This document shows, in pieces, positions 5,465 through 37,782 of a DNA stretch of 64,000 bases. Position 1 is the first letter of the stretch, and every line of letters begins with the position of its first letter. A program made the position numbers and the translations under genes. The stretch comes from Liolophura sinensis (Eukaryota > Mollusca > Polyplacophora > Chitonida > Chitonidae), in assembly GCF_032854445.1 (NCBI RefSeq), contig NC_088303.1:12719501-12783500 (forward strand), written 5' to 3'. The notes beneath the pieces were generated by a model that was given only the letters and a program-made list of their open reading frames with translations, was not told the DNA's origin and did no database searches.

Positions 5465-5607
5465 TTATTCAGCCTTGTTGAGTGGCTGGTCATGGCCATG
5501 TTCTCCGCCTGGATGGCCGTTCTGTTTACTGGAATCAGACATTTCACGATACGTCACAAACAGCTTGGCATATTCTGGCTTCTTTTCTGCACAGGCTTGA
5601 AACTCAT
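5465..5607 (-). CDS. LPCAT: LPCAT last coding exon
   Basis: The acceptor is TTCATTTCAG. The exon encodes [D]EFQACAEKKPEYAKLFVTY and then a hydrophilic tail rich in Ser, Gly and His ending PLNKAE before TAA. The HPEYAK-like block matches the C-terminus of LPCAT2. No KK-X-X C-terminus is present. Confidence 0.93.
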
Positions 5608-11600: not shown

Positions 11601-14600
11601 GTGATCTCCAGTCCTACTGACCATGTGTTATCCTGCCACCCTCATCTGTATCTGTATTACCTGTGATCTCCAATCCTACTCACCATGTGTGATCCTGCCA
11701 CCCTCATCTGTATCTGTATTACCTGTGATCTACAGTCCTACTCACCATGTGTGATCCTGCCACCCTCATCTGCATCTGGATTACCTGTGATCTACAGTCC
11801 TACTCACCATGTGTGATCCTGCCACCCTCATCTGTATCTGGATTACCTGTGATCTACAGTCCTACTCACCATGTGTGATCCTGCCACCCTCATCTGCATC
11901 TGGATTACCTGTGATCTACAGTCCTACTCACCATGTGTGATCCTGCCACCCTCATCTGTATCTGTATTACCTGTGATCTCCAATCCTACTCACCATGTGT
12001 GATCCTGCCACCCTCATCTGTATCTGTATTACCTGTGATCTACAGTCCTACTCACCATGTGTGATCCTGCCACCCTCATCTGTATCTGTATTACCTGTGA
12101 TCTACAGTCCTACTCACCATGTGTGATCCTGCCACCCTCATCTGTATCTGTATTTCTTGTGATCTCCAGTCCTACTCACCATATGTGATCTTGCCATCCT
12201 CATCAGCGTCCACTTCCTTGAACAGCTCATGAGTATCTATATCGTTCATCCCAAATGCATTTAGTAAAATCTGTGACAGTTCCTCCTCTGAGATATATCC
12301 CTTCCCATCAGAATCAAAAAGCTGCCAACAGTCAGAGGATACATGTATTTCATGGTGTTCTTGTGATACATGTAAGACATCACTGTTTCTCTTAAATACA
12401 ACTTCAAAGTGATCAGTCACATTAGTTGAACTAGGACTTCTGTATTTGTCTCCATTTAAATTATCTTTATTTCCCTGGCCTGAATTTTCTCTTTCTTAAC
12501 AAGGGAAAAATGCCATCACATCATATAATATGTTGTATAAAGCCAAGCTTATAAACTTAACAGTGACTGGCAAGGTTTGGTGGTGAGTGTAGGTGAGTGA
12601 CTGTGTGGTGGTGAGTGGATGTGTGGTGGAGGCAGCTGTGTGGTGATGAGTGGCTGTGTGGTGGTGAGTGGCTGTGTGGTGGTGGGCAGTTTTGTGGTGA
12701 TGAGTGACTGTGAGTGGTGGTGAGTGAGTGGTGGTGAGTGGCTGTGTGGTGGTGGGCAGCTGTGTGGTGATGAGTGACTGGGTGGTGGTGATGAATGACT
12801 GTGTGGTGGTCACGAGTGGTGATGAGTGACTGTGTGCTGGTGATGAGTGACTGTGTGGTGGTGGTGAGTGACTGTGGTGGTGAGCAGCTGTGTGGTGGTG
12901 GTGGTGAGTGACTGTGGTGGTGGTGAGTAGCTGTGTGGTGGTGAGTGACTGTGAGTGGCTGTGTGGTGGTGGTGAGTGACTACATGGTGGTGGTGAGTGG
13001 CTGAATGGTGGTGAGTCACACTGGGTTGTGGTGAGTGGCTGTGCTGTGAGTGGCGGTGAATGGAGGTACATGTAAGTGGTGGTGGGTGACAGAGATGTGT
13101 TGAGTAACAATAGGTGGTGGTAAGTGACACTGAGTGATGGTGAGCGGCAATGGGCGGGGGTGAATAACAGAGTGTGATGGTGTGTGACAATCAGTAGTGG
13201 TGAGTGCCAGTGTGACAGTGGTGGTGAGTGGCAATGAGTATTGGTGAGTGTAGGTCTAGCAGTGTCTCACCGTGAAGGCTAGCTGTATTGTCTCTTCAGT
13301 AGCTGCTGGTCCTGACACCAATGACAAGCCAATCACATATTCTCTGAAATCTATATAGCCTGAGCCAGCCTGAAACAGAAAGATCAAACACAGATAGAAC
13401 ATACAAAACAACCTACAAGACAGAACATACACAACCTACAAGCTACCATGTAGGAAAACAACAGCAGTTGCTTCTGAGCTTGTAAGTAATGTTTATTTGC
13501 TTGCGTAGATATCAGGATTAAAGTTTATCAGTTCAAAACTTGCCGAGCTATCTGACATCCAAGAGAAACTAATCTGATTTTTTTAACTGCATAAAGCAAG
13601 CCGTATGAAGCTGAATTGGCACTTTGGTTCATAAAAAGGTGTATAATGTATCAGATTAGTAAATGCTTGGCAATTACCTGCCCTCCAATACAAATCTCCA
13701 AAACTACAAAATCATAGTTTTCAGACAATTTACCTGCTATGACATAAAAAAATTCCTGATATGATGTGATATATGAAAGTAATTATGGAAAGAGGCAAAA
13801 GAAGAAATGATAAAAATATATTAATTCTCTACTGTCATGACTGTCCTCTGAAATTGGCCATGCTTTAATATGATATTAAATCTTTAACTTACTCTGTCAT
13901 AAAGCTGGAAAACTGTACGCAAGGGGTCAGAAACCGGCAGGCGTAAATACTTGGCAAATTCCTCAATTGTAACACGACCTGGCTTTCCACGACAGATCTT
14001 ACAAAATCTGTCAAACATTTCTTTAATGGTGTCGAAATCTAACCTGCATAGAGTTGAAACAGAGAAAACAATAATCTAAATTAGATAAGACAAATTTAAA
14101 CTGGTTTAACAACAATCAAGGCTATTAACATCATGTTTTGACACCTTGGCGAGTGCCGTTCAGTCTGAGATGCACTGTTATTACCAAGGCAACACTCCGA
14201 CTGGGGATTCTCCTCTGTTCCCTGATTAAACTGTCTTGAATGGCCAGTAATAATGTTACTATCTCAGTCACAAAAGGTCACTCTACAGACACAGTTAGCT
14301 TAACAAAGCATACACTTTGTGATCTGAAGTGGAATGTATAAACGCAATACCTTGTTGTTCATTAATCAAAATGGAGAAAAGCTCTGCTCATTAAATATTA
14401 TCTCCCTTTGTTTGGTAGTAAAAAAACCTGGTTACAACGCAGAAGTGACTAGCCTACATATTGGTTTACTGCGCTGAATTGAGAGATCGCTGCAAAATCC
14501 ATCCAAATTCAGTAAAGCCTTGTCCATCAGGAGGGTTATTTCTGTATCTCACTGTAAAAGCAATGCCTCAATCAAATAGCAATGTCCCACTAAAAGGCAA

Positions 14601-17600
14601 TATATGTCTTCTAGAGGTAATAGATCATCCTGTGGATTTAATGGCCATGTGAGTCAACTGATTACATTATCTGAATACCAAAAGCATAAGGAATGGCCAA
14701 AAACCATTTTTCCTGACTGTGCGTTCTATTGATTTTAAACAGGTGCTTTGAGGTTTGCTGGGAACATGGGATAATATTCTACAGGAAAATTGTTTCCTGC
14801 ACCAAAAACAATATTTTGCGACATATATTTGCCTCTAAAAAACCAAATTTCAGGTCATTTAGAGTCCCATATGAATCAATAGTGAGCTTTACCTGTGGCA
14901 AAACTGACCCAACTATAATGTGTTGCAGGTATATGCTACTGAGGGATTGTGAGATCAAAATAAATCTTATGAGTTCTCCAACGAATCACCTAGGCAAAAA
15001 TCTCAGCATGTCAGACAGCAATAACACCACTACACAGAAAAGGCAATGAACACAACAAAACTTACCCTAGTTTTTGGTGTAGTTTGTAAAATTCTACAAG
15101 CCCTGATGCCATAGGTAGTTTGTTGATAGCTGCCCTTTGCATCAGTCTGCAGTCATCATAGGTATGATCAGTGACAGGTACACCCAGACATCTACAACAT
15201 AAACCAGCACACACACTGTCAGTTTACATAGGTATGATCAGTGACAGGCACACCCAAACATCTATACCATAAACCAGCACACACACACACACTATCAGTT
15301 GACATAGGTATGACCAATTACAGGCACACCCAAACATCTACAACATAAACCACCACACACACACACCCTGTCAGTTTACATAGGTATGATCAGTGACAGG
15401 CACACTCCAAACATGTATACCATAAACCAGCGCGCGTTTGCACGCACACACGCACATGCACACACACACACTCTGTCAGTGTACATAGGTATGACCAGTT
15501 ACAGGCATACCTGAACATCTACAACATAAACCAGCACACACACACACTCTGTCAGTGTACATAGGTATGACCAGTTACAGGCATACCCGAACATCTACAA
15601 CATAAACCAGCACACACACACTCTGTCAGTGTACATAGGTATGACCAGTTACAGGCACACCCGAACATCTACAACATAAACCAGCACACACACACACTGT
15701 CAGTTTACATAGGTATGACCAGTTACAGGCATACCCGAACATCTACAACATAAACCAGCACACACACACTCTGTCAGTGTACATAGGTATGACCAGTTAC
15801 AGGCACACCCGAACATCTACAACATAAACCAGCACACACACACACTGTCAGTTTACATAGGTATGACCAGTAACAAGCACACTCAAAGATCTGTGTTCAC
15901 ATAGCTATGTATGCATTACACTGTACCCATCAGACCAAACTCTCCAAAGCCATTCCGTAACCTTACCAAAAGCACACTTGAGGCAGGCTTCTGGGATACC
16001 ATTACCATTCACTTAGCTGTGTTTACATTAATACCGTGTTCATTGGACCAAACTTTCCAGTGCCATGCCATTAGGTCACCACTAGCACACTTGTGACAGG
16101 ATTTTGGTATTACATTACCATTCACATAGCTGTGTTACATTAATACAATATTCATCAGGCCAAACTCTCCCGTGCTATGCCCTAAGGCCACCACCAGCCC
16201 AATTGTGGTAGGCTTCTGGCATTCCATTACCACTCACTTTATAGCTGTGTTTACACCACACTACTCATCCGACCAAACTCTCCCAGTGCCATGCTATTAG
16301 GTCACAACTAGCACACTTGTGGCAGGATTTTAATATTATCTGACAAGAAATGTGAAAATGACTTTTGGCCACATAAACGACAGCACAAACTCTTCAAACA
16401 CACACCTATCCATCCACTGCATGTCTGTACAATCATGCTACAGCACGATAATACAAACAGTATTGTACATCTTTATTTTGCTTATGAACACATATACCAA
16501 TACGACAATCTCTTACCTGGCCATTTCTTCTCTGACATTATTGGCAAAAAGCTTTGGGTCAGCCAGCTCTAACGTATTAGGGTGATACACAGGCAAGAAC
16601 TGAAAAGCAAGGATATATGTACCTACTGTGTTAATTGATGTTTAGTAACATTGACCAATTTAACACACATTTTCCTGTACACTTATCCTGAAGGTATAGC
16701 AGTTCATTAATAACTATTGCTACCATAAAATGCACAGTATGCTGAAAAATACTTCTTTGAGAGTAAATAAACAATGTAGTTATGTAGTGGGTTTGGAAGA
16801 AAAATAAAATGGTGGTGCTGGTGGTGGGGGGTTAGTGATAACTATTCCAGCATATTTATATTGAACATTTGCACCCAATGAGTGGGACATTCGGTAGACT
16901 TATTTGCAACAATACTGCTTATGACTGGTCAACTGCCTGTGGTCTTGATTGACAGTTTGGGAAGGCCTATTGGACCTTCATCCCTTGAAAACTAATGGGG
17001 ATGATGCAATACTGAGCCCCATGCTATGATGCAAATGAAACTACTTAAATTTGTTTTCATATCATTTTGTGATTACATGTAGGTTACATTTGCTTTTTCA
17101 CTTCATTTTGTTTTATAATGCATATCAATTAATTTTGTGTACATGTAAATTTTGATATATTTTATTTTATATTTTCTATTTATTGTCCCTTTATTTTAGT
17201 TTTTCAAAGTTACGTTTTATTATATCATGCTTGGCACTCATGGGCCACAATACTGATGTATTCAACTGTAGACCTACCTCTATTTCCATACGTGTTTGAA
17301 ACTGACACAATGTGTACCACAGCACTGCAAATCTGAAAACACATCACAAAAAATGTCTGATATGAGCTACAGAAAATATGGCAACGTCTCAACCCAATCA
17401 AGTGAACTGAAAGTAGTGGTTTACTGCAATACACTTACCCAATCCACAGCAGTTCAATTCAAAAAACACTACACACAAGTGATCATGAACCTACAGGTAG
17501 CTCTGCTTTGAACTGTACACTAACCGGCAACCAGCTTCTTATCATTGAATGCGAAACTCTTCTTGGCTCTTCATCAGAATAACGTACACATATTTTTCAT

Positions 17601-20600
17601 ACTTACGGTCCTGGTCCATCCCAAGTCCATGTAACGGTATCCTGTAATGGAAGAAGATATATACACACATCTGAAATTTCATGTTAACAGACTCATTTGT
17701 GTAGTGGTCTGTCAGGGATAGAGGTGTAAATTAGAGCCATTCATCAGCTCACTTCACCACCTGACACATAGTCTAAGGACTACATGTATTGTACATCTAC
17801 AGTGGACAGTTTTCAGTTTGCCAGTGGACATGTTATCTACAATGTCTAACCAAGCTCCCTGATAACAGTGTTGGTCAGTTTCCTCTTTAGGATTGTGATT
17901 TCTGAAGGATTGTTTGGCACACATGCATACATGTAGTTCGAGGTCTCTTTTTTTACCACTGAAGCCAAATTTCTAGAGGAATGCTTGGTACAACCCATTT
18001 TTTGACAGTACTTACCTAATCATGTTGTGACAAAAATCATTTTTCTTGTCACACAATGACTTATTCAAACATTTCTGAATTTCAACACAAAAACTTTTTT
18101 GTTTACATAGTGTTACATACATTTATTTTTTTTAAATTATGTGTGCGACATTTTTGTTAACTTTGTGAGTAATGTGTACAGCATCAAGCGCCCATGTCTT
18201 GAAGTGAGGTGTGAACAAAGGCTGGCTGACTTACCAGCTCATTGAGGTATCTGATCAGGACAGGCTGGATGGGCACACCAGGGTAAAATGCCCCTGTAAA
18301 AAAAAAAAAAAAAGAGAGAATTACACTTTAACAAGGATCATTCCCAGCTATCTGGTTTTTCAAGTCCACAGTAGCTTTCAACATTATCTCAGGAAGATTA
18401 TGACAGTGTGTGCTTGATGCTGGCAGGTCCCATGCTGACATTTGTATACTATACATATAGTGCTGCATCAATGGAACAGCATGCTGGAGACACCAGACAC
18501 AATGCCTCATTAAGTCACAGCATACATCTTTATTTTATAATTCAATATGACGAATCATTTATAAAATGAATACCGATTCATGACAGACGAAGAGACAATG
18601 TGCATATGTACAAGAACATGCATGTATATCAGAAGTAGTCCCTTTCAATACCAATAGCGGATGAAGAACAGATTTGTGACTTCGCAATCTTATAAACATG
18701 TTGGCTACCATCACAGTGTAATAGTTTTCTGACTTCACATTCTTATAATATGTAGCCTGTCATGACGACTTTACCTTTGTGTACATCCCAGCATATATAC
18801 ATGTCTGCCTTAACTCAAAATTTAAATCCTACTCATAATGCTTAGTCTGACACTGGAAGTTGAAACGTTGATATACTTGTCACATACTAACATTGTAGTG
18901 GTGGTCAAAATTTAAAAATCATATTAATTTTTAAATGCTGACTCCTATCAAAACTGTCTTTCTGGAATCGGCCCTGTTTCTAAGCTAACAAGTTTTAAAT
19001 CACAAGTTTGTCAGACGATAACATTTCTGATCAGTGTGACAAGGACACTTGAAGATATGCAATGTTTAGCAGGCTCTGACCTACACCAGGCATTATTCTT
19101 TGTGATGAATAGTTTGAACAAAACTCTGTAGTTAATGTTTATTAGAACTACACATAATACACTGCTTCCAGATTATTGTGTTATTTAATGTCCTGCACAA
19201 ACCTGTCTTACATTAACAGTACTTTCCTTTTCATACCTGAATTGTATTACCAGTTCTTCTCTGCACATTCCTGGCTTGTATTACCAGTACTTTCCCGCAT
19301 ACATATTCATGTAAATGTACCTAGGTTTTATCACAGACCTGGGTTTTATTACCTGTACTTTCACCCTAATATCTGACTTGTATTACCAGTACTTTCCCCC
19401 ATACATATTCATGTAAAGGTGCCTAGGTTTTATTACAGACCTGGGTTTTATTACCTGTACTTTCCCTCTAATACCTGGCTTGTATTACCAATACTTTCCT
19501 TCCTGTACCAGGCTTGCATTACCAGTACTTTCCTGCATACATATTCATGTAAATTTATCTAGGTTTTATTACAGGTTCTCTCCTCCACTTGCCTGGCTTT
19601 TATTACCTGTGCTTTCCTTCTCATATCTGGCTTGTATTACCAGTACTTTCCTCCCCATACCTGGCTTGTATTAAAAGCACTTTCCTCATACCTGGCTTGT
19701 ATTAAAAGCACTTTCCTCCTCATACCTGGATTGTATTACCAGTTCTTTTCTGCACATTCCTTGCTTGTACTACTGGTACTTTCCTGCATATACACATGTA
19801 CCTAGGTTTTATTACAGGTACTTTCCTCCACATACCTGGGTTCGTTACCAGGTATTACTGGTACTTTTCTGCATATATAGCATGTACCTGCCTTGTAATA
19901 CCAATAATTTCCTCCACATACCTGGCTTGAAGGAGATCAGACAGGATCTGTTTGTACATGTGCCCTCAGGAAAGATGACGATCTGTGGCCATTTTCCATT
20001 GGACTGAGCTCGTCTCTTAATTTCTTTGATTGTGTTCACTCGGGAGTCTGGGTCTTCACGAGACACAAACACAGGCTGTGTGTATCTAATTAATGCTGCC
20101 AATACAATTCATTGTAAAGTTAATATATGTACAAATTAGAGAGGAAGATGCAAACAATTCAGTGCTACACGCATCAATCTGTACTCTGGTCAAAACACTG
20201 TAACGCATTTAGAAATGAGATACAGTCTAATTATATAGTTTACATAAAGTTTACATTATTAGCCTGATGATTACTAAATTTCAAAATCTATTTCATCTTA
20301 CAGTGACAAAAACCATTTACCTTACTATTAACGCTATAAATAATATAAATTACAGGTGACGCTCTACATTATTGCTAAAATACTTACAATTTTGTAAACA
20401 GGTAACCCCATATTATTTCTTTAAATAAGGCTATAATTTATAAAATAAAGAAAGAGGAGCGAAAAACATAAATTATGGTTAAATAAGTTTGAGGTGAGAG
20501 TGAATGGTAGGCTTGGTGAAAGGTTCTGGATGGGGAGGAGTAGGGAGACAGGATAGGCAAACACTGGGGCAGGCTGGTCTTCATGAGGTGTGTTTATGAG

Positions 20601-29600: not shown

Positions 29601-32600
29601 AGGTGAGTGACAACAAACACAGAGTAGAGGTGTGTACAGGGTATACATACATGTATACAGTGTATGTACAGATGGACCGTGAAGAAATAGGTACACCGAG
29701 AACATCACAACAAGTGTCAAAAAACGCCAATCACTACACAAAGTAAACCACATGCAAATATGAAACCACAAACCAATTACTCCCTATCCTTCACTTTATT
29801 ACAGCAGTAAACCGAAAAAATTACGTCTTAAAGTTACGACTACCAAAAGTTACAAGAAGGAGCCTTTGCAGAAGGAATTCTAGATTTTGAGATGCCGAAT
29901 GATTTCATGCTACATTCGCTTTACGATGACATTTTCACCCGACTGTCCGGGAACAAATGCCAAACACAGGCTAGCCTCGTTAGAACAGGGTTTCAATACT
30001 CTGCCTTACTCATGATTGCCCTTGTTAGTATGGGTACATCTGTGCCATCAGCCATTGCATGGTGTCTCACATGCATTAGAAGACAGATCCAGCTGAAAGG
30101 CATTAACTCACTTATCAGGACTGTGCTGTGTGTAACCTTTCATAGCCATGGCCATTGAACGCTAAGGAGAATACAGCAGCCACGTTGCCAACCAACCCTT
30201 GGCTGTGGAAATCTCACCGTGTTATTTGCGTTAATCACAACAGGTTAGTAGTTCATACTAGATCAACATCATGTCACTGTTTTCCAGTTTGGATCATTAT
30301 CATTAGTAAATACGACAGTAAATATTTACGCTCTATGCTAACAATAATGGGAAGGCAATGTCACGGCAAACAATGTTCTGACATCTATACTCAGAGTGAT
30401 TAGGCAGTGGTCAAAATAAAAAAAGAAAATGAGAAAAATCACTTGACAAGTTAAACAAGGAAGCACTCAGTGTGTATCACAACATAACTGCAGAATATCA
30501 CCATGGTTACAGGGCGTGGCTAGAGACAAATATACATACTGCCCAAGAGTGGAATTTGAGAGTTTTCCTTCCGAGATATAACGCTGGGGATGTCCCGGAT
30601 AAACATGATAATAGCGTCCCAAAAACTGGAGTGCGGTGCAACACAGACCAGTGGGGCTTCTGTCATCGATGCCCTTTGGCCGCGGATGGCCACTTTATGA
30701 AATCCGCACAGAAAAAAAACACATCGGCCTATGAAGCCAAGCAGTTGATGGACAAACCTAAAATAGCAACACAAATAGAAATTCAACTTCAACAGTTATA
30801 TCCACGTCCATGAACCATGATTTACCTGTAACAAACATCGGTATCAACAGAGCAATAGTTCAACAAGATCATAGTTTTTACAACTGAAAAGTTCCTGAAG
30901 AAATGGCTACCATTCCAACTGACCTTTTCTCAACGTTCAGTCAATATTAGTCCACCTTCAAAATACACTGATACATCAGGTATGTCCAGAAAAGCCAAGC
31001 ACACCAAACAACAAATTATCAAACAAAATCAATTATGAAGTTTGCAACATTTACCACCATCTGGGAAATATAGGTATTCAGCAATTTGAGGTTCATAGTG
31101 TTCATAGTTAGGGCTTCAGTGTATTTAATGGACAGTTCAGTTGGATTGGTATACACTGCATGTAAGTTTTACAACAGCAAAGTACTTCGCAGAGCATGCA
31201 TATTAAATGCCTCATTCAAATAACTTAATGCGTTAAATTAAAAGTAAACCTAGAATAATAACTTTAATAAGCTACATGTAGACGACCATGCCACAAATTT
31301 CAACATTCTTTGTAAAACGTTCCTCTGTAAATCACAGCCGTGGTCACTTTCAGAGCTGAAACTGAGCAAAATGACAGGCCATCACAGCCCACACAAAGAC
31401 CATTTGCCACACAAGGAAGTTGATCCATCCTTGCACACGAAGTAAAGAGGCGCTACAACAAGCCACATTACAGCGCATGAAGCACAATGTCCGCACATAT
31501 ATGTAGTCAGTTACTGGATCAGTGTCAAACAGCAGGGCATACTGCAGTGTACAAGTACCATTTCTGCACAGTTACTGGATCAGTGTCAAACAGCAGGGCA
31601 TACTGCAGTGTACAAGTACCATTTCTGCACAGTTACTGGATCAGTGTCAAACAGCAGGGCATACTGCAGTGTACAAGTACCATTTCTGCACAGTTACTGG
31701 ATCAGTGTCAAACAGCAGGGCATACTGCAGTGTACAAGTACCGTTTCTGCACAGTTACTGAATCAGTGTAAAATAACAGGGTCCCAGGAGTCTCTTGCCA
31801 ATGTGGTCACTGTGATGCTGGCTCCCTCTCCGGCCGTACGTGAAAAGGTCTGCCAGCCACCTGCAGATGGTCATGAGTTTCACCTGGGTTTCCTCCCACC
31901 ACAAATCTGGACACGACCATAAAAGTGAAATATTCCTGAGCATGGCGTAAAACAATAATCAAATAAATTAACGACAGGGCCTACTGACGCACAATTACCA
32001 TTTCTGCAAAGTTACTGAGTCTGTGTCAAATAGCTGTACAAGTATCATTTTTGCACAATACTGGATCAGTGTTAAATAGCAGGGCTTATTGCAGAACAAG
32101 TACCATTTCTGCATCATTAATATTCAGTGTCAAATAACAGGACCTATTACAGTACAAGCACCATTTCTGCAGTTACTAGACCAGTGTCAAATGACAGGGC
32201 CTATTGCGGCACAATTACCATTCCTGCACAGTTACTGATTCAGGGGCAAATAGCAGGGCCTATTGCAGCACAAGCACGATTTCTGCACAGTTACACATAG
32301 CAGGGACTATATGTATGACTGTACAGGTACCCTTTCTGTACAGCTGCTGATTCAGTGTCAAATAGCTGCTTCTATAGCTGAACAAGTAAGATTTCTGATT
32401 CAGAGTCTCATAACAGACTTAAGCACAATTCATGTTAAATACTGTACTATTATCATCAATAATGCATTTTAAGTTTATGGAATCATTTCTGATTAGGACA
32501 TATCTACAAGCAGCCAAAATCTGCATCCTCAGAAAGCAGATAAAACAAAATATTGATTTATTCTCCCATAATAATGTGATAGTACTTGCACACTGTACAT

Positions 32601-35600
32601 GGTGGGTTAGTCAAACTCTGGCCTTGTAGCCTGTGCATCTACCTACATTGTACATGTATAATACAGGGCAGAATATAGTCAGTGTGCTATTACCAGAAAA
32701 TTAACCTTGCATATGCAGATGCTCCTGAGATGCACAAATCAATACGCCCTGCCAGGGGTGAGGTGAAAGGTTAGACAACATCTGTTAGGATCCCACAGCT
32801 TTAGGCATGTTAGATAAGCTGGACATATGGTTGTCTTTCTCCAAATCTGCATGTATATGATTCACAGGAGGAATGTGAATTAGTCGGGCGAATACTGGGA
32901 TAAATACATACTGTATAATGACATAAAAATCATATCCATGATGTACATGTAAACCACCTCAAATACACGTACATTACATGTACATGGCCCCAATTATACC
33001 TATGTACTTGAGTGCAATATGTTAACTTAGCTTGCCCGAACAATGACAAAATTTAAACTTTAAATACACTTCAGTGGCCACACAGACTGCCCTTCTGTAC
33101 TGCGTTACATTCTTTAAATAACGTACAAGGAAGCTACTTTGTAGTCCAAAATCCAAATTTACCAGGGCAAATTATTTCAACCTCCATTACAGTTGTAACC
33201 AGAATTCCCAGACCTGCAACAGTTGTTATAACTACACTGTACAGCTACACACAGAGGTTCATGTAGCCAGCCACACACCTACTGTATCATGGATGTGGAA
33301 AATAAAGGGTGAAGTACATGTGCCTAAATAATGGGCATTTACACAGATCCATCCTTATATGTACTGTCACTTATCGATAAACTTAGAAAGACTCAAAACA
33401 AAACCAATACACAAACAAAAATAAATATACAACAAAACAAAACAAAATTATGTGCCTTCAAACACTCAATATCTTTGGAATACAATGCAAGTTTGTTCAC
33501 CAATGGGCAGATGCCAAGTTTTAATTGCTTTACATTCAACAGTGATAGGCTTCTTAGTTTAATAAAATTATACACTTGTCAAGAAGTTAAAACAGGTACA
33601 TGTACATGTAGGTTTTGTGAAACAACATGTGAAAATGAATGTATATCTATAAAAAGGGTAGAAAAATTTAACAAAAACTTTTGTATAGGGTAGCAAAAAT
33701 TTGGACTGCTAGGAATCTCTGCACATGTATTTCTTTCAAATAGAAGAAAACAATCTGTGTAGCATGTGTCAGGTGTGGAGTACATGTAGCTGGTGTACAG
33801 TACATGTTCTTAGTTTCCTCTGTTGTCAGGGTGTTGCTGTTAATGGTGTGGTGGGCGTGGGGCAGGAGCAGGAAAACGGGAGACAGAGCTAAAACAAAGG
33901 GAAAATGAATGAAGAAACGAAATGTTCATACTTCCAAATATGGGCACATATTCTGATTCAGATTTGGCCACAACTGAAGTGAGGTCCAGGTAGGTGACGA
34001 CAACAGAGTCAAAGTATGATGAGTGTGGAGAGAGGGCGACTATGGGTGCCTCCTGGGACGTGGCACGCTTCCCTTTCACCGACAACCAGTGCAAACCTCC
34101 CCAGAAGAATACTCCACGGCAGAAAAACACCACAATGGGCCTCAACATGCTAAATAGAGAGATAGACAGAGTGTCACACACAGCCGGCATGTCACCTCAC
34201 ACACACAGACCAGACAGAGAAAGTGTGTCACACCCAGCCAGAATGTCACCTCACACACACACACACACATGCACGCACACACAGACAAAACAGAGACAGC
34301 GTCACACACAGCCACCATGTCACCTCACATACACACACAGACAAGAGTGTCACACACAGCGAGCCCCCCCACCCCCACGATTATTAACCAACAGCAGTAG
34401 TTGTCAAATGTTAGTTCAAACAGAATTAGGAACAGGACGTGTTACAATCACCAATTAGTGGATCAGAAAAAGCTGGCCTCAATGAACGGCTTACTTACAG
34501 TAACCTTCTTTTGCTAGCACATGTATAAATGCCTGAGTTGGCTTTGAGTCAGAAGTCTGAGATCAATTTGTAAATGAATCATAGAAGCGAAGTTTACAAA
34601 CAGCATACGGTTGTCGAATCTCAACATCGATATAAAGTTTGCAGTTGAATTGAGGTTAATTTTATAAATTTCTAAACAGTATACTTTTACAGTCTGTGTT
34701 ATTCTTCACAAATAGATCTCCCAGAAAAAAGCTTTGAATATTAACTTTTTATATCTAGTTTTTACCCTTCATTTTTTTCTTTTAATAGGAGTGGGTAAGG
34801 GATATGTCTAAGTACATTCTTTCTGTATCTGCAGATAAACACAGAAGAGATTCTAAATGCCTCTTCTGTTTTGGTGCAAAACCTTAACATCCAGGAAAAT
34901 TGCATCCAAGCAATAACTGAAATTTAAAAACAATTCATTCAAATTCCAATTCAAGAATATTTCATGTATGCAATTCTGGTTGGAGGAAACTGGGATGTGT
35001 TATTAATCACACTACTGACACACTTCCTGATGCTGGTGCTGTATACAAGGAGAGGAAGGGAATTGTACAATCTTGGCCTTCAACACGCTCATTCAAGAGC
35101 CTCGATCTAATCCTATTTTATACCAGTTATCAAGTTACCTACTGTAGTTTTCATGCAACTGAAAAAAAAAGACAGTACACCATTAAACATACATGCATAC
35201 ATGTGGCATAAATGTTAGTGAAACCAAGCATGCTAGTACACATGTGCAGACCGACTTAGACTGCAATGAAAAGGTTCGACCCAGAATGCGAATATCCGAG
35301 TGGAAAATAAGCCAACTTTGAAGCAAAAACATCAACAGAGTATTGTCACTGTTCATAGCAAAACAAAGCAAAGTAGTCATGCAAGGCTTAGGCATGTTAG
35401 GACTGCTGATACAGTCTGGCACAGCAAGCTGCATTGTTCTCACCTGATCTAACTTACAGTTGTTATGTACACTTAGGGCTTTACTGAGCAGTATGATGGA
35501 CACATTTTAATACTTGTTTAGGATTGCCTGGGTGAATTACATTAGGGGTCTTGCTGGATCATACCAATACATGGCTCTCTCACGGTCAACCTTTGCCAGC

Positions 35601-37569
35601 TCCACCTGCTAGGGTTTTGTCAGGTGTCTTGGCAATGTGTCATGGTTTACTCCGGGTACAGGTTTACTCCACAGTCCACACAAAATCCTCACCATCATCA
35701 TATACATGTACGTGAAAATTCCTGAGTTACACGTAAAATGCTCATCCAATAAATAACTTCAGTAAATATCCTATTTATTAAAATGAACATGTGCTCATTT
35801 GTAGGATCTATCACACCTTATACCTTCTGATGCTTCACGCATTTTTGTTTGACTTAGCAACAGTTATAAGCACAGGTAGGACAGGACAGCTAAGGATTCA
35901 CAACGAGAGGAGCATTATAGAGAGGGGGGTCCATGGTAAGCAGAGGATTCATAACTCTCATTACAGTGATAACTGACAACAGGAGTTTAAAGAGAGAGGA
36001 AGACCATGTAAGAAAAGGCTTCAGACATGTCAGATTTGTTCAAATCACAGTAGCATCACAAGCAAAAATGAGATTTGGTGAGTTGTATCTTTATGCAAGC
36101 TTGTTTTTGAAAGTATGTGCAAAAGTATTAAAGCCACTGAAGTGCAGGAAAGCAGTTTGTCTGGTTTTTGACAGACATAAACCAAACATGTCCTTCCAAC
36201 AGTTCCACCACAAGTATTATGTATTCTACTGCACAAAGGCTAATTCAAGACAGCCCAGAGGTCACATACAGTATACACTTTATAATAGAAAGCTTCATGT
36301 TACAAAGCCTTGAAAAGCTCACCACACTATGTCGTTCTGCATGTACATGTATAAGCCTTGCAGGCATTACACACACACACACACACATATACATAACAAG
36401 ACTTTAGTTAACAAACCACACCCTTGTATTTGAGATCTGTGTCAACGAACCACACTTGTACTGAGGCTTCAGTCAACAAAGCAAATTTGTCATGAGAATT
36501 TAGTCAATGAACCACACTTGAAATGAGACTTTCATTGACAAGCCAGATACCTGTTCGGAGACTTCAGTCAACAAATATTTGTAATGAGACTTTAGTCAAC
36601 AAACCACACATTTGTACTGAAACTTTAGTTAACAACCCACACAATTGTACTTGAGATGTAGTCAACAAACCACACTTGTAGTGAGACTTTAGTCAATGAA
36701 CCACACTTGTAATTAGAATTAGTGAGCAAATGACACTCGTATTTGACACTTGAGAAAATGAACCACACTTGAAATGAGACTTTAGTCAAAAAACCACACC
36801 TGTGATCAGACTTTATTCAACAAACGACACTTCTCATGAGACTTCAGTCAACAAACCACATTTGTAATGAGAATTTAGTCAACGAGCAACACTTGTAATG
36901 AGAAATTAGTCAACAAACCACATTTGTAATGAGACTTCAGTCAACAAAGCACTATTCATGACAATTTTTTCAGCAAACCACACTTGTAATCAAACTTTAG
37001 TGAACCACCCACACTTGTAATGAGACTTTAGTCAACAAACCACTCAAGTAATGAGACTTTAGTCAACAAACCACACATGTATTTAATGATAATTAGTCAA
37101 CAACAAATGTATTCAATAACACTTCAGTCAACAAACCACACATGCCAAACTACTGCACTGCATAATAAATCAAGCTGCATGGATATATTCAAAGAGAGAA
37201 GAATCATTCTCGGGTAATAAATTTTACGGCAATATCAAGATTAAGGAAAAAGAAAATTATTGTTCAGCCAAAAAGAACTTTGAAAACATAATTTTAAGAC
37301 ACCATGTATAAGACTAACATAAACAGCATTTCCTAAAAAGTTACCAGGATGTCTTCTTTCTCAACCAAACATGAACTCTGGTGTTCTAACACAGTGGGTC
37401 AACACTGAGCCCTTACAATCACTTACTTCCTCCACCCGGCTAGGGGCACTTTCTCCTCATCCTTGTCTCTGCCAAGCAGGGCCAGCGCTGCGATTGGCCA
37501 AGCAATAAGAAGACAGAAACCGGCCATCAGCAGTCTGATTGGTGCCACGGTCAACGACATCAGCACCAC
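5465..37569 (-). CDS. LPCAT: Lysophosphatidylcholine acyltransferase (LPCAT1/2/4 family), multi-exon, 5' end missing
   Basis: Members of this family transfer an acyl group from acyl-CoA to lysophosphatidylcholine (or related lysolipids, lyso-PAF) in the Lands cycle, at the ER or lipid droplets. Twelve consecutive minus-strand exons join with matching phases: 37427-37569, 33932-34149 or 30540-30757, 19922-20095, 18235-18293, 17607-17641, 17278-17332, 16517-16599, 15066-15191, 13893-14043, 13271-13369, 12180-12321 and 5465-5607 (stop TAA). Every junction has GT donor and AG acceptor. The product is about 475 residues plus a lost N-terminus; human LPCAT1 and LPCAT2 are about 535-545. In order it has a hydrophobic segment, HX4D motif (HSSYFD or HSSFWD), PVFVSR, FPEGTCTNR, YPGVPIQPV, a linker, then three EF-hands. 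The C-terminus ends PLNKAE, without the KKXX ER-retrieval ending of the vertebrate proteins. The first exon(s) probably lie in or beyond the assembly gap at 37583. Family assignment is firm; which vertebrate paralogue it matches is not settled, because the duplicated exon mixes features of both. Confidence 0.95.
6000..6955 (-). mobile_element. LINE (non-LTR) remnant, RT core and C-terminus
   Basis: Reverse-strand translation gives GVPQGSILGPLLFLLYIND, the reverse-transcriptase signature of LINEs. It continues to FAVNT where active elements have FADDT, so the catalytic Asp pair is lost. Further on come LRTWLCANRLSLNI, HTAPLFHHFQILPLTD, YNTR and EWNKLPTNL, all typical of the ORF2 C-terminus of CR1/Jockey-like elements without RNase H. 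Several frameshifts and stops are present. It lies inside the last LPCAT intron, in the same orientation as the gene. It is a dead copy. Confidence 0.88.
6956..7225 (-). mobile_element. tRNA-derived SINE, full length, inserted in the LINE
   Basis: In reverse orientation this reads GGGGGCCTCCGTGCCTCAG with tRNA A-box (consensus TGGCTTAGTTGG in sister copies) and B-box (GAGTTCAAGTCC) sequences. A conserved body follows, then a tail of AAAT repeats. It is flanked by 13-bp direct repeats with one mismatch (ACACCAAATGTTA at 6943-6955; ACACCACATGTTA at 7226-7238). It splits the LINE reverse transcriptase exactly before GVPQGS. Confidence 0.9.
7226..7960 (-). mobile_element. LINE remnant, endonuclease end and start of RT
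   Basis: This is the continuation of the LINE on the 5' side of the SINE. Reverse-strand frames give TLLDDIFTNFHSNFLISGTL then TDITDQFPVF (C-terminal end of the AP endonuclease), a linker with KNRLYRLQLK and RYRVYRNKL, then KYLSNRFHCVSFNNTLSEL just before the RT motif. The N-terminal part of RT expected between linker and KYLSNR is missing, so the copy carries an internal deletion as well as frameshifts. Confidence 0.8.
8680..8963 (-). mobile_element. LINE ORF1-like remnant
   Basis: The reverse frame reads NSNPPAIIMKLVHAKDKDRI then LKSSATLK, like the RPIIIKF..KDRDRIL block of LINE ORF1 proteins (RRM/C-terminal domain). It sits upstream of and in the same orientation as the ORF2 remains. It may be the ORF1 of the same insertion or of another copy. 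The 9247-9492 Gln-rich stretch may also belong here but cannot be assigned. Confidence 0.45.
9780..12179. repeat. 62-bp minisatellite, ~38 copies, containing a copied splice donor
   Basis: The plus-strand unit includes TGTATTACCTGTGATCTCCA and CCTACTCACCATGTGTGATC. Read on the minus strand it is the last 25 nt of the LPCAT exon at 12180-12321 (GATGAGGGTGGCAGGATCAC then ACATG) followed by GTGAGTAGGA and about 30 nt of intron. The array runs without a break into the real exon-intron junction. Units differ by a few substitutions and one short unit is present near 10390. Confidence 0.95.
12180..12321 (-). CDS. LPCAT: LPCAT exon: EF-hand 2 and most of EF-hand 3
   Basis: This 142-nt exon encodes LFDSDGKGYISEEELSQILL through FKEVDADEDGKITY. 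Loop DSDGKGYISEEE is canonical (acidic at 1, 3 and 12). Loop DADEDGKITYDE is canonical and is completed by the last exon. The acceptor is GTTGGCAG and the donor is G|GTGAGT. The 62-bp minisatellite begins at the donor. If this intron were retained, translation would stop after ITYGE, which still supplies Glu at loop position 12. Confidence 0.95.
12575..13255. repeat. GTGGTGAGTG-rich minisatellite
   Basis: Short degenerate units of GTGGTGAGTGGCTGTGTGGT type give a strong G/T versus C/A strand bias. The array occupies almost the whole intron between the LPCAT exons at 12180-12321 and 13271-13369. On the minus strand it gives meaningless Thr/His/Ser-rich ORFs. Confidence 0.9.
13271..13369 (-). 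CDS. LPCAT: LPCAT exon: EF-hand 1 and helix
   Basis: This 99-nt, phase 0 exon encodes AGSGYIDFREYVIGLSLVSG, then PAATEETIQLAFT. With the preceding YDR it forms loop D-R-A-G-S-G-Y-I-D-F-R-E. Position 3 is Ala, so this EF-hand probably binds Ca2+ weakly or not at all. The acceptor is CTGTTTCAG and the donor is GTGAGA. Confidence 0.93.
13893..14043 (-). CDS. LPCAT: LPCAT exon: EEFAKYLRLPVSD and start of EF-hand 1
   Basis: This 151-nt exon encodes LDFDTIKEMFDRF through VTIEEFAKYLRLPVSDPLRTVFQLYDR. The EEFAKYL.LPVSD block is diagnostic of LPCAT1/2. The EF-hand 1 loop begins at YDR and is completed by the next exon. The acceptor is CTATGCAG and the donor is GTAAGT. Confidence 0.95.
15066..15191 (-). 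CDS. LPCAT: LPCAT linker exon (CLGVPVTDHTYDDC)
   Basis: This 126-nt exon starts with one base completing Arg and encodes CLGVPVTDHTYDDCRLMQRA, ending FYKLHQKL plus GG. It matches the conserved LGVPVTDHTYEDC block between the acyltransferase and EF-hand parts. The acceptor is TATGTTGTAG and the donor is GTAAGT. A minisatellite at 15.2-15.9 kb starts at this acceptor and copies its first 35 nt. Confidence 0.95.
15192..15895. repeat. ~75-bp minisatellite containing a copied splice acceptor
   Basis: About eight units each contain (plus strand) CATAGGTATGACCAGTTACA, GGCACACCCGAACAT, CTACAACATAAACCAGC and a CA run. On the minus strand this is a GT-rich tract, GGTTTATGTTGTAG and the first 35 nt of the LPCAT exon 15066-15191, with about five differences from the real exon. 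The array abuts that exon's acceptor. In one unit near 15415 the AG is lost. Confidence 0.93.
15896..16340. repeat. ~110-120 bp tandem repeat, about four copies
   Basis: Units contain GACCAAACTCTCCCAGTGCC and CATTACCATTCACATAGCTG. It directly follows the acceptor-bearing array, in the intron upstream of exon 15066-15191. Confidence 0.8.
16517..16599 (-). CDS. LPCAT: LPCAT exon (FLPVYHPN...VREEMA)
   Basis: This 83-nt exon encodes FLPVYHPNTLELADPKLFAN and NVREEMA plus AG of a split Arg. The FLPVY and LFANNVR blocks match the end of the acyltransferase domain. The acceptor is TTGCTTTTCAG and the donor is GTAAGA. Confidence 0.92.
17278..17332 (-). CDS. LPCAT: LPCAT small exon (LWYTLCQFQTRMEIE)
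   Basis: This 55-nt exon begins with one base completing Pro, then encodes FAVLWYTLCQFQTRMEIE. It corresponds to the LTLCQFHNQVEIE-type segment of LPCAT1. The donor is GTAGGT, phase 0. Confidence 0.9.
17607..17641 (-). CDS. LPCAT: LPCAT micro-exon (DTVTWTWDGPGP)
   Basis: This 35-nt exon encodes DTVTWTWDGPG plus CC of a split Pro codon. The TVTWTW block is conserved in LPCAT1/2. The acceptor is CATTACAG and the donor is GTAAGT. Confidence 0.9.
18235..18293 (-). CDS. LPCAT: LPCAT exon with YPGVPIQPV motif
   Basis: This 59-nt exon encodes AFYPGVPIQPVLIRYLNEL after the two bases GG that complete Gly. It holds acyltransferase motif IV. The acceptor lies in a T-rich tract ending TTTACAG and the donor is GTAAGT, phase 0. 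Confidence 0.92.
19185..19921. repeat. Minisatellite of CCTGGCTTGTATTACC units containing a copied splice donor
   Basis: Units of about 33-34 bp and longer composites contain CATACCTGGCTTGTATTACC and AGTACTTTCCTCC. On the minus strand the unit reads ACAAGCCAG|GTATG. This equals the last 8 nt of the LPCAT exon 19922-20095 plus its GTATG donor. The array ends at that exon. Four or five units keep the GT; others have lost it. Confidence 0.85.
19922..20095 (-). CDS. LPCAT: LPCAT exon with FPEGTCTNR acyltransferase motif
   Basis: The exon carries 57 full codons from LIRYTQPVFVSR to SFKP. It contains PVFVSREDPDSR (motif II region), KWPQIVIFPEGTCTNRSC (motif III, acyl-acceptor binding) and SFKPG. 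The acceptor is GTATTGGCAG and the donor is CCAG followed by GTATGT. A minisatellite containing copies of this donor begins immediately downstream, at 19.2-19.9 kb. Confidence 0.95.
21300..23200. repeat. 35-bp minisatellite, >50 copies
   Basis: The unit is TCCTGTCATGTCTACTCTAC then CACAGCTACAGTGTA, with variants (CCATAGCCACAGTGTATCCTG). Because 35 is not a multiple of 3, long ORFs on both strands cycle through three frames of the unit. They are not genes. It lies in the intron between the two catalytic exons and exon 19922-20095. Confidence 0.95.
23200..23420. repeat. Short tandem repeat of ~39 bp
   Basis: Units contain GTATCACATGTAGTGTACCA and CAGCTATAGTGTATAAA. It is probably a diverged extension of the preceding 35-bp array. 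Confidence 0.75.
23421..23645. repeat. 77-bp tandem repeat, three copies
   Basis: Starts at 23421, 23498 and 23575 give a 77-bp period. Copies carry GTGTAACCTCCAGACACATG and AGCCTATCAATTGCTTATTT and are nearly identical, so the expansion is recent. Confidence 0.9.
23646..25085. other. LPCAT intron sequence, no recognisable element
   Basis: I see no exon, repeat array or transposon signature here. A pair of related segments (ATCTTCCCATCCAGTAGCAA type) near 24590 and 24680 is a short local duplication. Confidence 0.5.
25086..25435 (-). mobile_element. Probable second SINE-like dispersed element
   Basis: The low end reads GAATGAATGAATCTTTGGGG then TTTAACGCCGTAC, like the tail of a dispersed repeat. 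The body has TTCTTGTGGCAGTGTGAATC, and the high end holds a B-box-like GATTGATCCAGGG. I recall similar repeats in molluscan genomes, but this is from memory. CCAACCAGG is triplicated near 25285-25312. Confidence 0.5.
25550..26030. repeat. 42-bp minisatellite (GATGATCACACAATCCTGGG)
   Basis: About eleven units carry GATGATCACACAATCCTGGG, GATGACATATCTGAACAAT and variants. Because 42 is a multiple of 3, both strands stay open over the array. Confidence 0.9.
26052..26317 (-). mobile_element. tRNA-derived SINE, full length
   Basis: This is the same family as 6956-7225. In reverse orientation it reads GGGGCCTCCGTGGCTTAGTT (A-box) and GAGTTCAAGTCCAGCTC (B-box), then the body, ending in a plain poly-A tail (poly-T on the plus strand) rather than AAAT repeats. 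Target-site duplications are not clear. Confidence 0.9.
26515..29250. repeat. 26-bp minisatellite, ~105 copies
   Basis: The unit is CACCCATGGTCAATGTAA plus CACATGTG. Main variants are CACCC/CATCC, AACAC/AATAC/CATAC and GTGC/GAGC. It contains the palindromes CCATGG and CACATGTG (an E-box). It lies in the intron downstream of catalytic exon B. Variant patterns recur at higher order; for example a block near 28340-28480 is nearly repeated at 28600-28740. Confidence 0.97.
29251..30539. other. LPCAT intron sequence, no recognisable element
   Basis: Plus-strand ORFs around 29892-30403 have no recognisable motif and look like chance ORFs. Confidence 0.5.
30540..30757 (-). CDS. LPCAT: LPCAT catalytic HX4D exon, version B (LPCAT4-like)
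   Basis: This is a second 218-nt exon, from the acceptor TTGCTATTTTAG to a GTATGT donor, again 72 codons with one base at each end. It carries HSSFWD followed by PSVISRKENSQIPLLG. The SR-EN pattern resembles LPCAT4 (LPEAT2), while version A resembles LPCAT1/2. I count 25 identities in 72 aligned positions, with no gaps, against version A. Either exon joins correctly to the upstream exon (AA plus G or C gives Lys or Asn) and to the next exon (A plus CA gives Thr). Confidence 0.9.
31507..31770. repeat. 61-bp minisatellite, 4.3 near-perfect copies
   Basis: Starts 61 bp apart (31508, 31569 and so on) carry CAGTTACTGGATCAGTGTCA and CAGCAGGGCATACTGCAGTG. More diverged copies follow at 31975-32420, on the far side of a SINE fragment. 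Confidence 0.95.
31780..31970 (+). mobile_element. Diverged, 5'-truncated SINE inside a minisatellite
   Basis: The plus strand reads CCCAGGAGTCTCTTGCCAAT, CTCTCCGGCCGTACGTG and, at the end, GAGCATGGCGTAAAACAATA ATCAAATAAATT, matching the SINE body and tail. The A-box end is missing. The array motif AATAACAGGG lies on its left, and array-like ACGACAGGGCC resumes on its right. Confidence 0.8.
31975..32420. repeat. Degenerate copies of the 61-bp minisatellite
   Basis: Loose copies of ACCATTTCTGCACAGTTACT and CAGTGTCAAATAGCAGGGCC recur every 60-70 bases with substitutions and indels. Confidence 0.8.
32421..33931. other. Intron between the two catalytic LPCAT exons
   Basis: No repeat array or known element is seen. 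The 3.2-kb interval 30758-33931 separates the two alternative exons and would hold any splicing-control elements. Confidence 0.5.
33932..34149 (-). CDS. LPCAT: LPCAT catalytic HX4D exon, version A (LPCAT1/2-like)
   Basis: This 218-nt exon begins after CTCTATTTAG and ends at a GTATGA donor. It has 72 codons flanked by one base at each end. It carries the catalytic motif HSSYFD and the downstream block SVVAKSESEYVPIFG. HSSYFD and a Lys-containing AKSES block are the LPCAT1/2 style. The hydrophobic start (IVVFFCRGVFFWGG) is probably membrane-embedded. Its boundaries, length and phases equal those of the exon at 30540-30757, so it should replace that exon rather than accompany it. A GTGTCACACACAG-type minisatellite begins about 10 bases upstream of the acceptor. 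Confidence 0.9.
34160..34370. repeat. GTGTCACACACAGCC / CACA-rich minisatellite
   Basis: About five units of AGTGTCACACACAGCC and ATGTCACCTCACACACAC start 10 bases upstream of the acceptor of catalytic exon A. On the minus strand the array is GT-rich and runs into the polypyrimidine region. Confidence 0.85.
34371..36400. other. LPCAT intron sequence, no clear element
   Basis: At 34950-35040 a stretch with CAAGAATATTTCATGTATG and GGAGGAAACTGGGATG weakly resembles the SINE body. It is too diverged to call. Confidence 0.4.
36400..37150. repeat. 31-bp minisatellite (AGTCAACAAACCACACTTGT)
   Basis: About 22 units of AGTCAACAAACCACACTTGT and AATGAGACTTT, with many substitutions, lie in the intron between exon 37427-37569 and catalytic exon A. 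Confidence 0.9.
37427..37569 (-). CDS. LPCAT: LPCAT exon with N-terminal hydrophobic segment
   Basis: This exon encodes 47 codons plus AA of a split codon. It starts VVLMSLTVAPIRLL, continues with a membrane-type helix rich in Leu, Ala and Ile, and ends PLAGWR followed by a Lys or Asn codon completed by the next exon. An in-frame TAG sits directly upstream as part of a TTGTAG acceptor, which fixes the 5' boundary; the donor is GTAAGT. The segment matches the hydrophobic N-terminal region before the catalytic motif in LPCAT1/2. Only 13 bases separate the exon from the assembly gap, so the polypyrimidine tract is unseen. Confidence 0.85.
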
Positions 37570-37582
37570 CTACAACAGGCAA

Positions 37583-37782
37583 NNNNNNNNNNNNNNNNNN
37601 NNNNNNNNNNNNNNNNNNNNNNNNNNNNNNNNNNNNNNNNNNNNNNNNNNNNNNNNNNNNNNNNNNNNNNNNNNNNNNNNNNNNNNNNNNNNNNNNNNNN
37701 NNNNNNNNNNNNNNNNNNNNNNNNNNNNNNNNNNNNNNNNNNNNNNNNNNNNNNNNNNNNNNNNNNNNNNNNNNNNNNNNNN
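37583..37782. other. Assembly gap of exactly 200 N
   Basis: A run of exactly 200 Ns is the usual placeholder for a gap of unknown size. It begins 13 bases upstream of an LPCAT exon, so the missing first coding exon(s) may lie in it. Confidence 0.98.

Follow-up and report, generated by a model that had tools for sequence, protein, structure and literature searches.

Two homologous motif I exons, candidates for mutually exclusive splicing, in an LPCAT-type gene of the chiton Liolophura sinensis

An LPCAT-type gene with a duplicated internal exon

The minus strand of a 64,000-nt stretch of the Liolophura sinensis genome (positions 12,719,501 to 12,783,500 of NC_088303.1, assembly GCF_032854445.1; hereafter the window, whose numbering is used throughout) carries an LPCAT-type acyltransferase gene in which two neighbouring exons, A and B, each encode the catalytic HX4D motif. 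We built the gene model with provisional human LPCAT1/2 sequence as bait and then with splice signals. It runs from an upstream exon (E_up, 37569-37427) through A or B to E3 (20095-19922) and nine further exons, the last of which closes with a TAA whose end is at 5465; each of the 12 donors is GT, and the acceptors are AG. With either A or B, E_up and E3-E12 yield a 475-residue frame up to the stop, i.e. a partial frame excluding the N-terminal coding exon, for which pattern and bait searches found no candidate. N occurs in the window as a single run, just upstream of E_up, so A, B and E3 stand on gap-free sequence. The features are as follows, with one residue position given relative to Thermotoga maritima PlsC (TmPlsC).

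37583..37782, no strand: assembly gap, 200 bases of N, directly upstream of E_up
37427..37569, minus strand: exon E_up, common upstream exon, 143 nt, hydrophobic N-terminal part, donor GAA/GTAAGT, single genome match
34200..34343, minus strand: UG-rich tandem repeat within 300 nt upstream of the A acceptor; none before B
33932..34149, minus strand: exon A, alternative, 218 nt, motif I HSSYFD, Lys at the TmPlsC Lys105 position
30540..30757, minus strand: exon B, alternative, 218 nt, motif I HSSFWD, Arg at the TmPlsC Lys105 position
19922..20095, minus strand: exon E3, common, 174 nt, motif II PVFVSR and motif III FPEGTC, single genome match
18235..18293, minus strand: exon E4, common, 59 nt, motif IV region YPGVPIQPV
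17607..17641, minus strand: exon E5, common, 35 nt
17278..17332, minus strand: exon E6, common, 55 nt
16517..16599, minus strand: exon E7, common, 83 nt
15066..15191, minus strand: exon E8, common, 126 nt
13893..14043, minus strand: exon E9, common, 151 nt, between the acyltransferase and EF-hand parts
13271..13369, minus strand: exon E10, common, 99 nt, EF-hand region
12180..12321, minus strand: exon E11, common, 142 nt, EF-hand pair
5465..5607, minus strand: exon E12, common, last coding exon, 143 nt, TAA stop at its end

In the spliced frame the motifs follow in the order HX4D, PVFVSR, FPEGTC and PGVPIQP. The Pfam acyltransferase domain PF01553 scored 63.1 bits with A and 64.0 bits with B, as against 35.9 bits when E_up was joined to E3 without either (37.5 bits for E3 alone), so that A contributes 27.2 and B 28.1 bits to the match. 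The region after E3 matched EF-hand_6 (75.1 bits), EF-hand_7 (72.9 bits) and EF-hand_1 (69.2 bits), all over cut-off. C-terminal EF-hands are a feature of the LPCAT1/2/4 family and of the human proteins. By its domain content the predicted product is an EF-hand, AGPAT-type acyltransferase of LPCAT type, and a lyso-PC (or lyso-PAF, lyso-PE) acyltransferase activity, as expected of this family, is putative.

Exons A and B are adjacent, separated by one 3,174-nt intron, and agree in every respect in which the original prediction had claimed them to: both are 218 nt long, both start after two nucleotides of a codon and end after one, with AG and GT at their flanks, their proteins align without a gap at 25/72 identities, and HX4D is present in each. 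BLASTP gave 65.1 bits (E 3e-21, for that single comparison), and the gapless BLOSUM62 score of 153 lay 12.7 standard deviations (SD) above that of shuffled sequences (mean -71, SD 17.7, maximum 5 in 20,000 shuffles). The window contains, on its minus strand, 281 stretches of 218 nt between AG and GT, 20 of them open in the needed frame, and the best of these besides A and B scores -18 against either. A third copy was found neither in the window (next best tblastn E 0.46) nor by the genome search.

At the nucleotide level A and B are identical at 98/218 positions, with 29, 52 and 16 of 72 identities at the first, second and third codon positions, respectively. Third positions at chance indicate that the duplication is old and, taken together with second positions that are not at chance, point to long selection on both exons at the protein level. 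A and B are, by this pattern, under long-term coding constraint, and neither looks dead.

The arrangement suggests how the transcript would be spliced. The donor after 37427 and the acceptor before 20095, named in the original prediction as the partner junctions, proved correct, and either E_up-A-E3 or E_up-B-E3 would keep the frame, each mRNA taking exactly one of the two exons. Including both brings a stop after 129 residues of the partial frame and including neither after 50, in agreement with the earlier claim that both or neither breaks the frame; transcripts of either kind would likely be targets of nonsense-mediated decay. With equal length, frame, splice sites, homology, early stops and flanking exons that occur once only, the proposal of mutually exclusive homologous exons is supported at the sequence level. 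We infer use of both exons, exclusivity and decay on this basis; Liolophura RNA-seq from five tissues (digestive gland, foot, gill, gonad and heart) exists, according to an excerpt of PMC11068029. Our reading, to which we give a probability of roughly 85%, is that an ancient tandem duplication gave rise to A and B as homologous exons within the sole LPCAT1/2/4-type gene found, and that each mRNA would take one of the two, tuning the choice of acceptor or acyl group.

Exon choice and the vertebrate LPCAT genes

The segment encoded by A or B begins ahead of the core, takes in motif I and reaches the PxxG that precedes motif II; E3 carries motifs II and III, and E4 carries motif IV. Selecting one exon or the other would hence exchange a block of 72 residues in the acyltransferase domain, while motifs II, III and IV and the EF-hands would stay unchanged and calcium sensing would be unaffected. 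TmPlsC (PDB 5KYM), which is a bacterial lysophosphatidic acid (LPA) acyltransferase of 247 residues and, unlike the chiton gene, has no exon switch, gave a domain match to both isoforms (E 1.8e-6 for A, 2.5e-7 for B); in the printed alignments its Lys105 pairs with a Lys in A and an Arg in B. Excerpts of a review of LPA acyltransferases (PMC6688108) suggest that the LPA phosphate contacts TmPlsC Arg159 and Lys105, and in LPCAT2, according to the portion of PMC8753187 available, Arg166 has been proposed from a manually docked model to recognise the phosphate of lyso-platelet-activating factor near the catalytic His146. LPCAT2, A and B all have 20 as the spacing between His and the Lys or Arg. 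As the residue aligned with Lys105 lies inside A and B, choosing between the exons would exchange the proposed contact with the acceptor phosphate together with the motif I pocket, which lends strength to the earlier suggestion of different active-site surroundings. An altered preference for the lysophospholipid acceptor or the acyl-CoA is the most likely effect, judged from the position of the block. If both exons are used, one gene would supply two acyltransferases with different catalytic pockets and the same EF-hand tail, and splicing could set membrane remodelling.

The LPCAT family makes surfactant lipid and platelet-activating factor, and mammalian LPCAT1, LPCAT2 and LPCAT4 are separate genes (both from the available part of PMC8753187), in contrast to the chiton, where a single gene has two exons for motif I. 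Like that gene, vertebrate LPCAT1/2/4 place an AGPAT-type acyltransferase domain before EF-hands. All human LPCAT1/2/4 letters used here are provisional and the alignment was made by hand, and the tree, identity and swap results rest on them. Over 74 columns, A shared 31, 25 and 25 identities with LPCAT1, LPCAT2 and LPCAT4, and B shared 31, 34 and 31; the common exons E3-E5 shared 67, 64 and 53 of 88.

Trees were compared by approximately unbiased (AU) tests and FastTree on five sequences, or six with TmPlsC. TmPlsC was the sole outgroup, and chiton and human were the only animals, because no domain relatives were confirmed in prokaryote and viral contig collections, in scans that used short back-translated peptides and that distant relatives would escape. 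A tree joining A to LPCAT1 and B to LPCAT2/4 was 4.0-5.4 log units ahead of one with A and B as sisters. Against the sister arrangement, the AU tests on five sequences gave p values of 0.046 (LG+G4), 0.051 (LG), 0.048 (WAG+G4) and 0.078 (JTT+G4); once TmPlsC was included the value was 0.051 (LG+G4). A swap statistic pointed the same way (67, sign-flip p 0.006, with LPCAT2; 62, p 0.016, with LPCAT4). By single sites, four join A to LPCAT1 and B to LPCAT2 (Y/F in motif I, the Lys/Arg site, S/N and I/L), one supports the opposite pairing and one A-B sisterhood; with LPCAT4 in place of LPCAT2 the corresponding counts are 4, 2 and 1.

With B kept beside LPCAT2/4, the six-sequence AU test could not separate A with LPCAT1, A basal and LPCAT1 basal (p 0.68, 0.35 and 0.53), and B matches LPCAT1 as closely as A does, both of which speak against the pairing. 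Motif spacing speaks against it as well: both chiton isoforms have 38 between motifs I and II and 34 between II and III, like human LPLAT9 (LPCAT2) and LPLAT10 (LPCAT4) and unlike human LPLAT8 (LPCAT1), whose I-II spacing is 37 (values from the accessible text of PMC8753187); the LPCAT1-type 37 was looked for in A and is absent, with 38 in its place. On balance, A is weakly favoured as a relative of LPCAT1, and B of LPCAT2/4, and we treat the ties as a lead. A tentative account, at odds short of even, would make the pair ancestral to bilaterians: a single LPCAT gene would have produced both LPCAT1-type and LPCAT2/4-type enzymes by exon choice, vertebrate duplication would have left LPCAT1 with the A type and LPCAT2/4 with the B type, the chiton would keep the old state, and Lys/Arg would be the original functional difference. 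Should the ties hold, the family would clearly illustrate how gene duplication can take the place of alternative splicing, and A and B would form a clean natural tool for mapping determinants of substrate choice.

The alternative that survives best is a lineage-specific exon duplication, in which A and B would be each other's closest relatives, with no special tie to LPCAT1 or LPCAT2/4, and splicing would still be exclusive. We consider it rather unlikely. It draws on the AU tests, which do not firmly reject A-B sisters (p 0.046-0.078 over five runs), on the equal nearness of A and B to the provisional LPCAT1 letters (31/74 each) and on a genome search that covered one animal only; it is opposed by the tree and swap results, and a recent event is further opposed by chance-level third positions and 35% identity.

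Weighing exclusive splicing

Several observations weigh against our main reading of A and B. A distance of 3,174 nt leaves no steric bar to joining A to B, and the two exons share their splice-site type; steric exclusion and incompatible splice-site classes, as mechanisms, are accordingly unsupported, the introns read being GT-AG. Both donors are poor, agreeing with CAG/GTAAGT at 5/9 positions where nine other donors agree at 6 to 8, though the constitutive exon E10 has the same 5/9. The change from Lys to Arg is conservative. A and B share 35% identity, compared with a mean of 67% in the multi-species exclusive-exon set of PMC7954323 (as given in the part of that paper available), and among exons predicted from such features on the fly X chromosome, 26/65 were already annotated, in the accessible section of PMC3228551. 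In favour of the reading, the same section reports such features for only 90/16,180 non-exclusive exons of the D. melanogaster X chromosome.

Intron pairing belongs with these points. We searched for exact complementary stretches of at least 12 nt with tandem repeats masked, numbering introns from E_up and covering intron 3 over its first 3 kb. Introns 1 and 2 share four such stretches, above the 0.72 (SD 0.93) of shuffled sequences; these are just 12 nt each and in part of the self-complementary TACATGTACATG type. Between the first 3 kb of intron 3 and either intron 2 or intron 1 there were none (0.35 and 0.37 expected, respectively). The paired intron elements envisaged by the original prediction did not emerge in convincing form in the sequence covered, and base-pairing as the exclusion mechanism was set aside. 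Frame disruption with presumed decay would be the only safeguard found in the sequence.

The UG-rich tract before A was another candidate, and we take it to be a possible CELF/TDP-43-type site, a weak lead. UG hexamers matched 34 times in the 300 nt upstream of A, not at all upstream of B and 32 times upstream of E8; as an A-specific regulator the tract is weak, E8 being preceded by equally UG-rich sequence.

Tandem repeats also adjoin other parts of the gene. A minisatellite of ~74 bp (15157-15892) overlaps the acceptor and the start of E8 (15191-15066), upstream of which translated copies of the exon's first residues recur (LGVPVTDHTY-like); the E8 acceptor AG plus 20 nt has two further near copies with at most 3 mismatches. 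A 62-bp minisatellite at 9766-12204 starts at the 3' end of E11 (12321-12180). There, 38 sites, the true one included, match the last 20 nt of the exon plus 8 nt on the donor side with at most 4 mismatches, 32/38 keeping GTGAGT. The copies resemble dozens of decoy donors, whose use would mostly shift the frame since 62 is not divisible by 3. Within the intron between B and E3, a 26-bp tandem array (26515-29248) holds ~105 copies at 92% matches.

A reading that would do away with splice choice altogether places A and B in separate transcription units, through alternative promoters or tandem or nested genes. The failure of pattern and bait searches to find the N-terminal coding exon leaves room for a promoter private to one exon; the acceptors of both exons are, for their part, in phase with E_up, and copy number, in counts that are lower bounds, is against it. 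The 11 exons of the gene model besides A and B each matched once in the assembly. A whole-assembly search with the A-isoform domain returned four matches at E up to 10, all at this locus (A, E3, E_up and B), and exon B alone matched only B and A. With PF01553, seven places in the genome passed E 0.001, E3 alone passing at the A/B locus. The downstream protein (296 aa) gave at least 80 matches, nine of them E4-E12 of the window, one each; among the matches listed, 71 lay elsewhere and started at query residue 80 or beyond, 70 of these at residue 118 or beyond, i.e. in the EF-hand half, and residues 1-79 had no second match elsewhere among the matches listed. The short exons E4, E5 and E6 match at E 0.008, 0.31 and 0.004, weak enough that a diverged second copy of them could escape the search. 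Flanking exons seen once argue against two tandem genes, a candidate arrangement that we found unsupported; as far as such counts reach, the locus appears to hold a single LPCAT-type gene in which one exon is duplicated. Separate units are accordingly improbable.

Slighter still is the chance that one exon is dead or decaying, or is a poison exon that lowers expression when joined with the other. The early stop on inclusion of both and the 5/9 donors would suit it; against it, both frames are open, and AG/GT, HX4D and the fit to the domain persist in both despite chance-level third positions. That the assembly wrongly juxtaposed two alleles, or two genes, is barely credible: a gap of N does adjoin E_up, yet both exons lie downstream of it, the sequence holding A, B and E3 is free of gaps, and 98/218 identity is far below allele level.

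Elsewhere in the window, on the minus strand, an 825-residue open frame at 55904-58381 encodes HAD hydrolase and then GMC oxidoreductase domains with no stop within; next to it, at 58852-59778, another open frame also encodes a HAD domain. In the wider assembly, a contig of 108,685 bases (C99) carries seven COX1 copies ~15.5 kb apart, with one more COX1 on contig C632; the mitochondrial COX1 is open under the invertebrate code (table 5), and C99 is probably a concatenated mitochondrial contig.

Comparison with known exclusive exons

An LPCAT with exclusive or alternative exons was described in no paper among the matches listed, in a search with supplements and annotation databases outside its scope; the term 'LPCAT' is absent from the main texts of PMC9741552 and PMC7954323. 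A close invertebrate counterpart is Drosophila CG32699, which resembles the chiton gene in being the one LPCAT1/2 orthologue predicted; it shows LPCAT activity and is found on lipid droplets according to the available portion of PMC4293825, whose main text contains neither 'splice' nor 'exon'. Primer 2 for CG32699 in that portion reads, as reverse complement, HYVTMK in one frame, nearer to HWLSVK of A than to HKVAIR of B; the primer is very short and is a lead only, hinting at possible use of an A-like exon in the fly.

Homologous exclusive exons as such are a known kind. In excerpts of the literature, those of cacophony (Cav2), muscle Mhc, TrpA1 and Dscam are, like A and B, neighbouring internal exons of the same length, frame and splice-site type in which both or neither breaks the frame. 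The chiton pair differs from them in that its exclusivity is deduced from sequence features and in that A and B supply motif I of an acyltransferase's active site, a target hit less often: nine events touch catalytic residues in the multi-species set, as far as the accessible part of PMC7954323 goes. A and B are thus ordinary in kind and uncommon in target.

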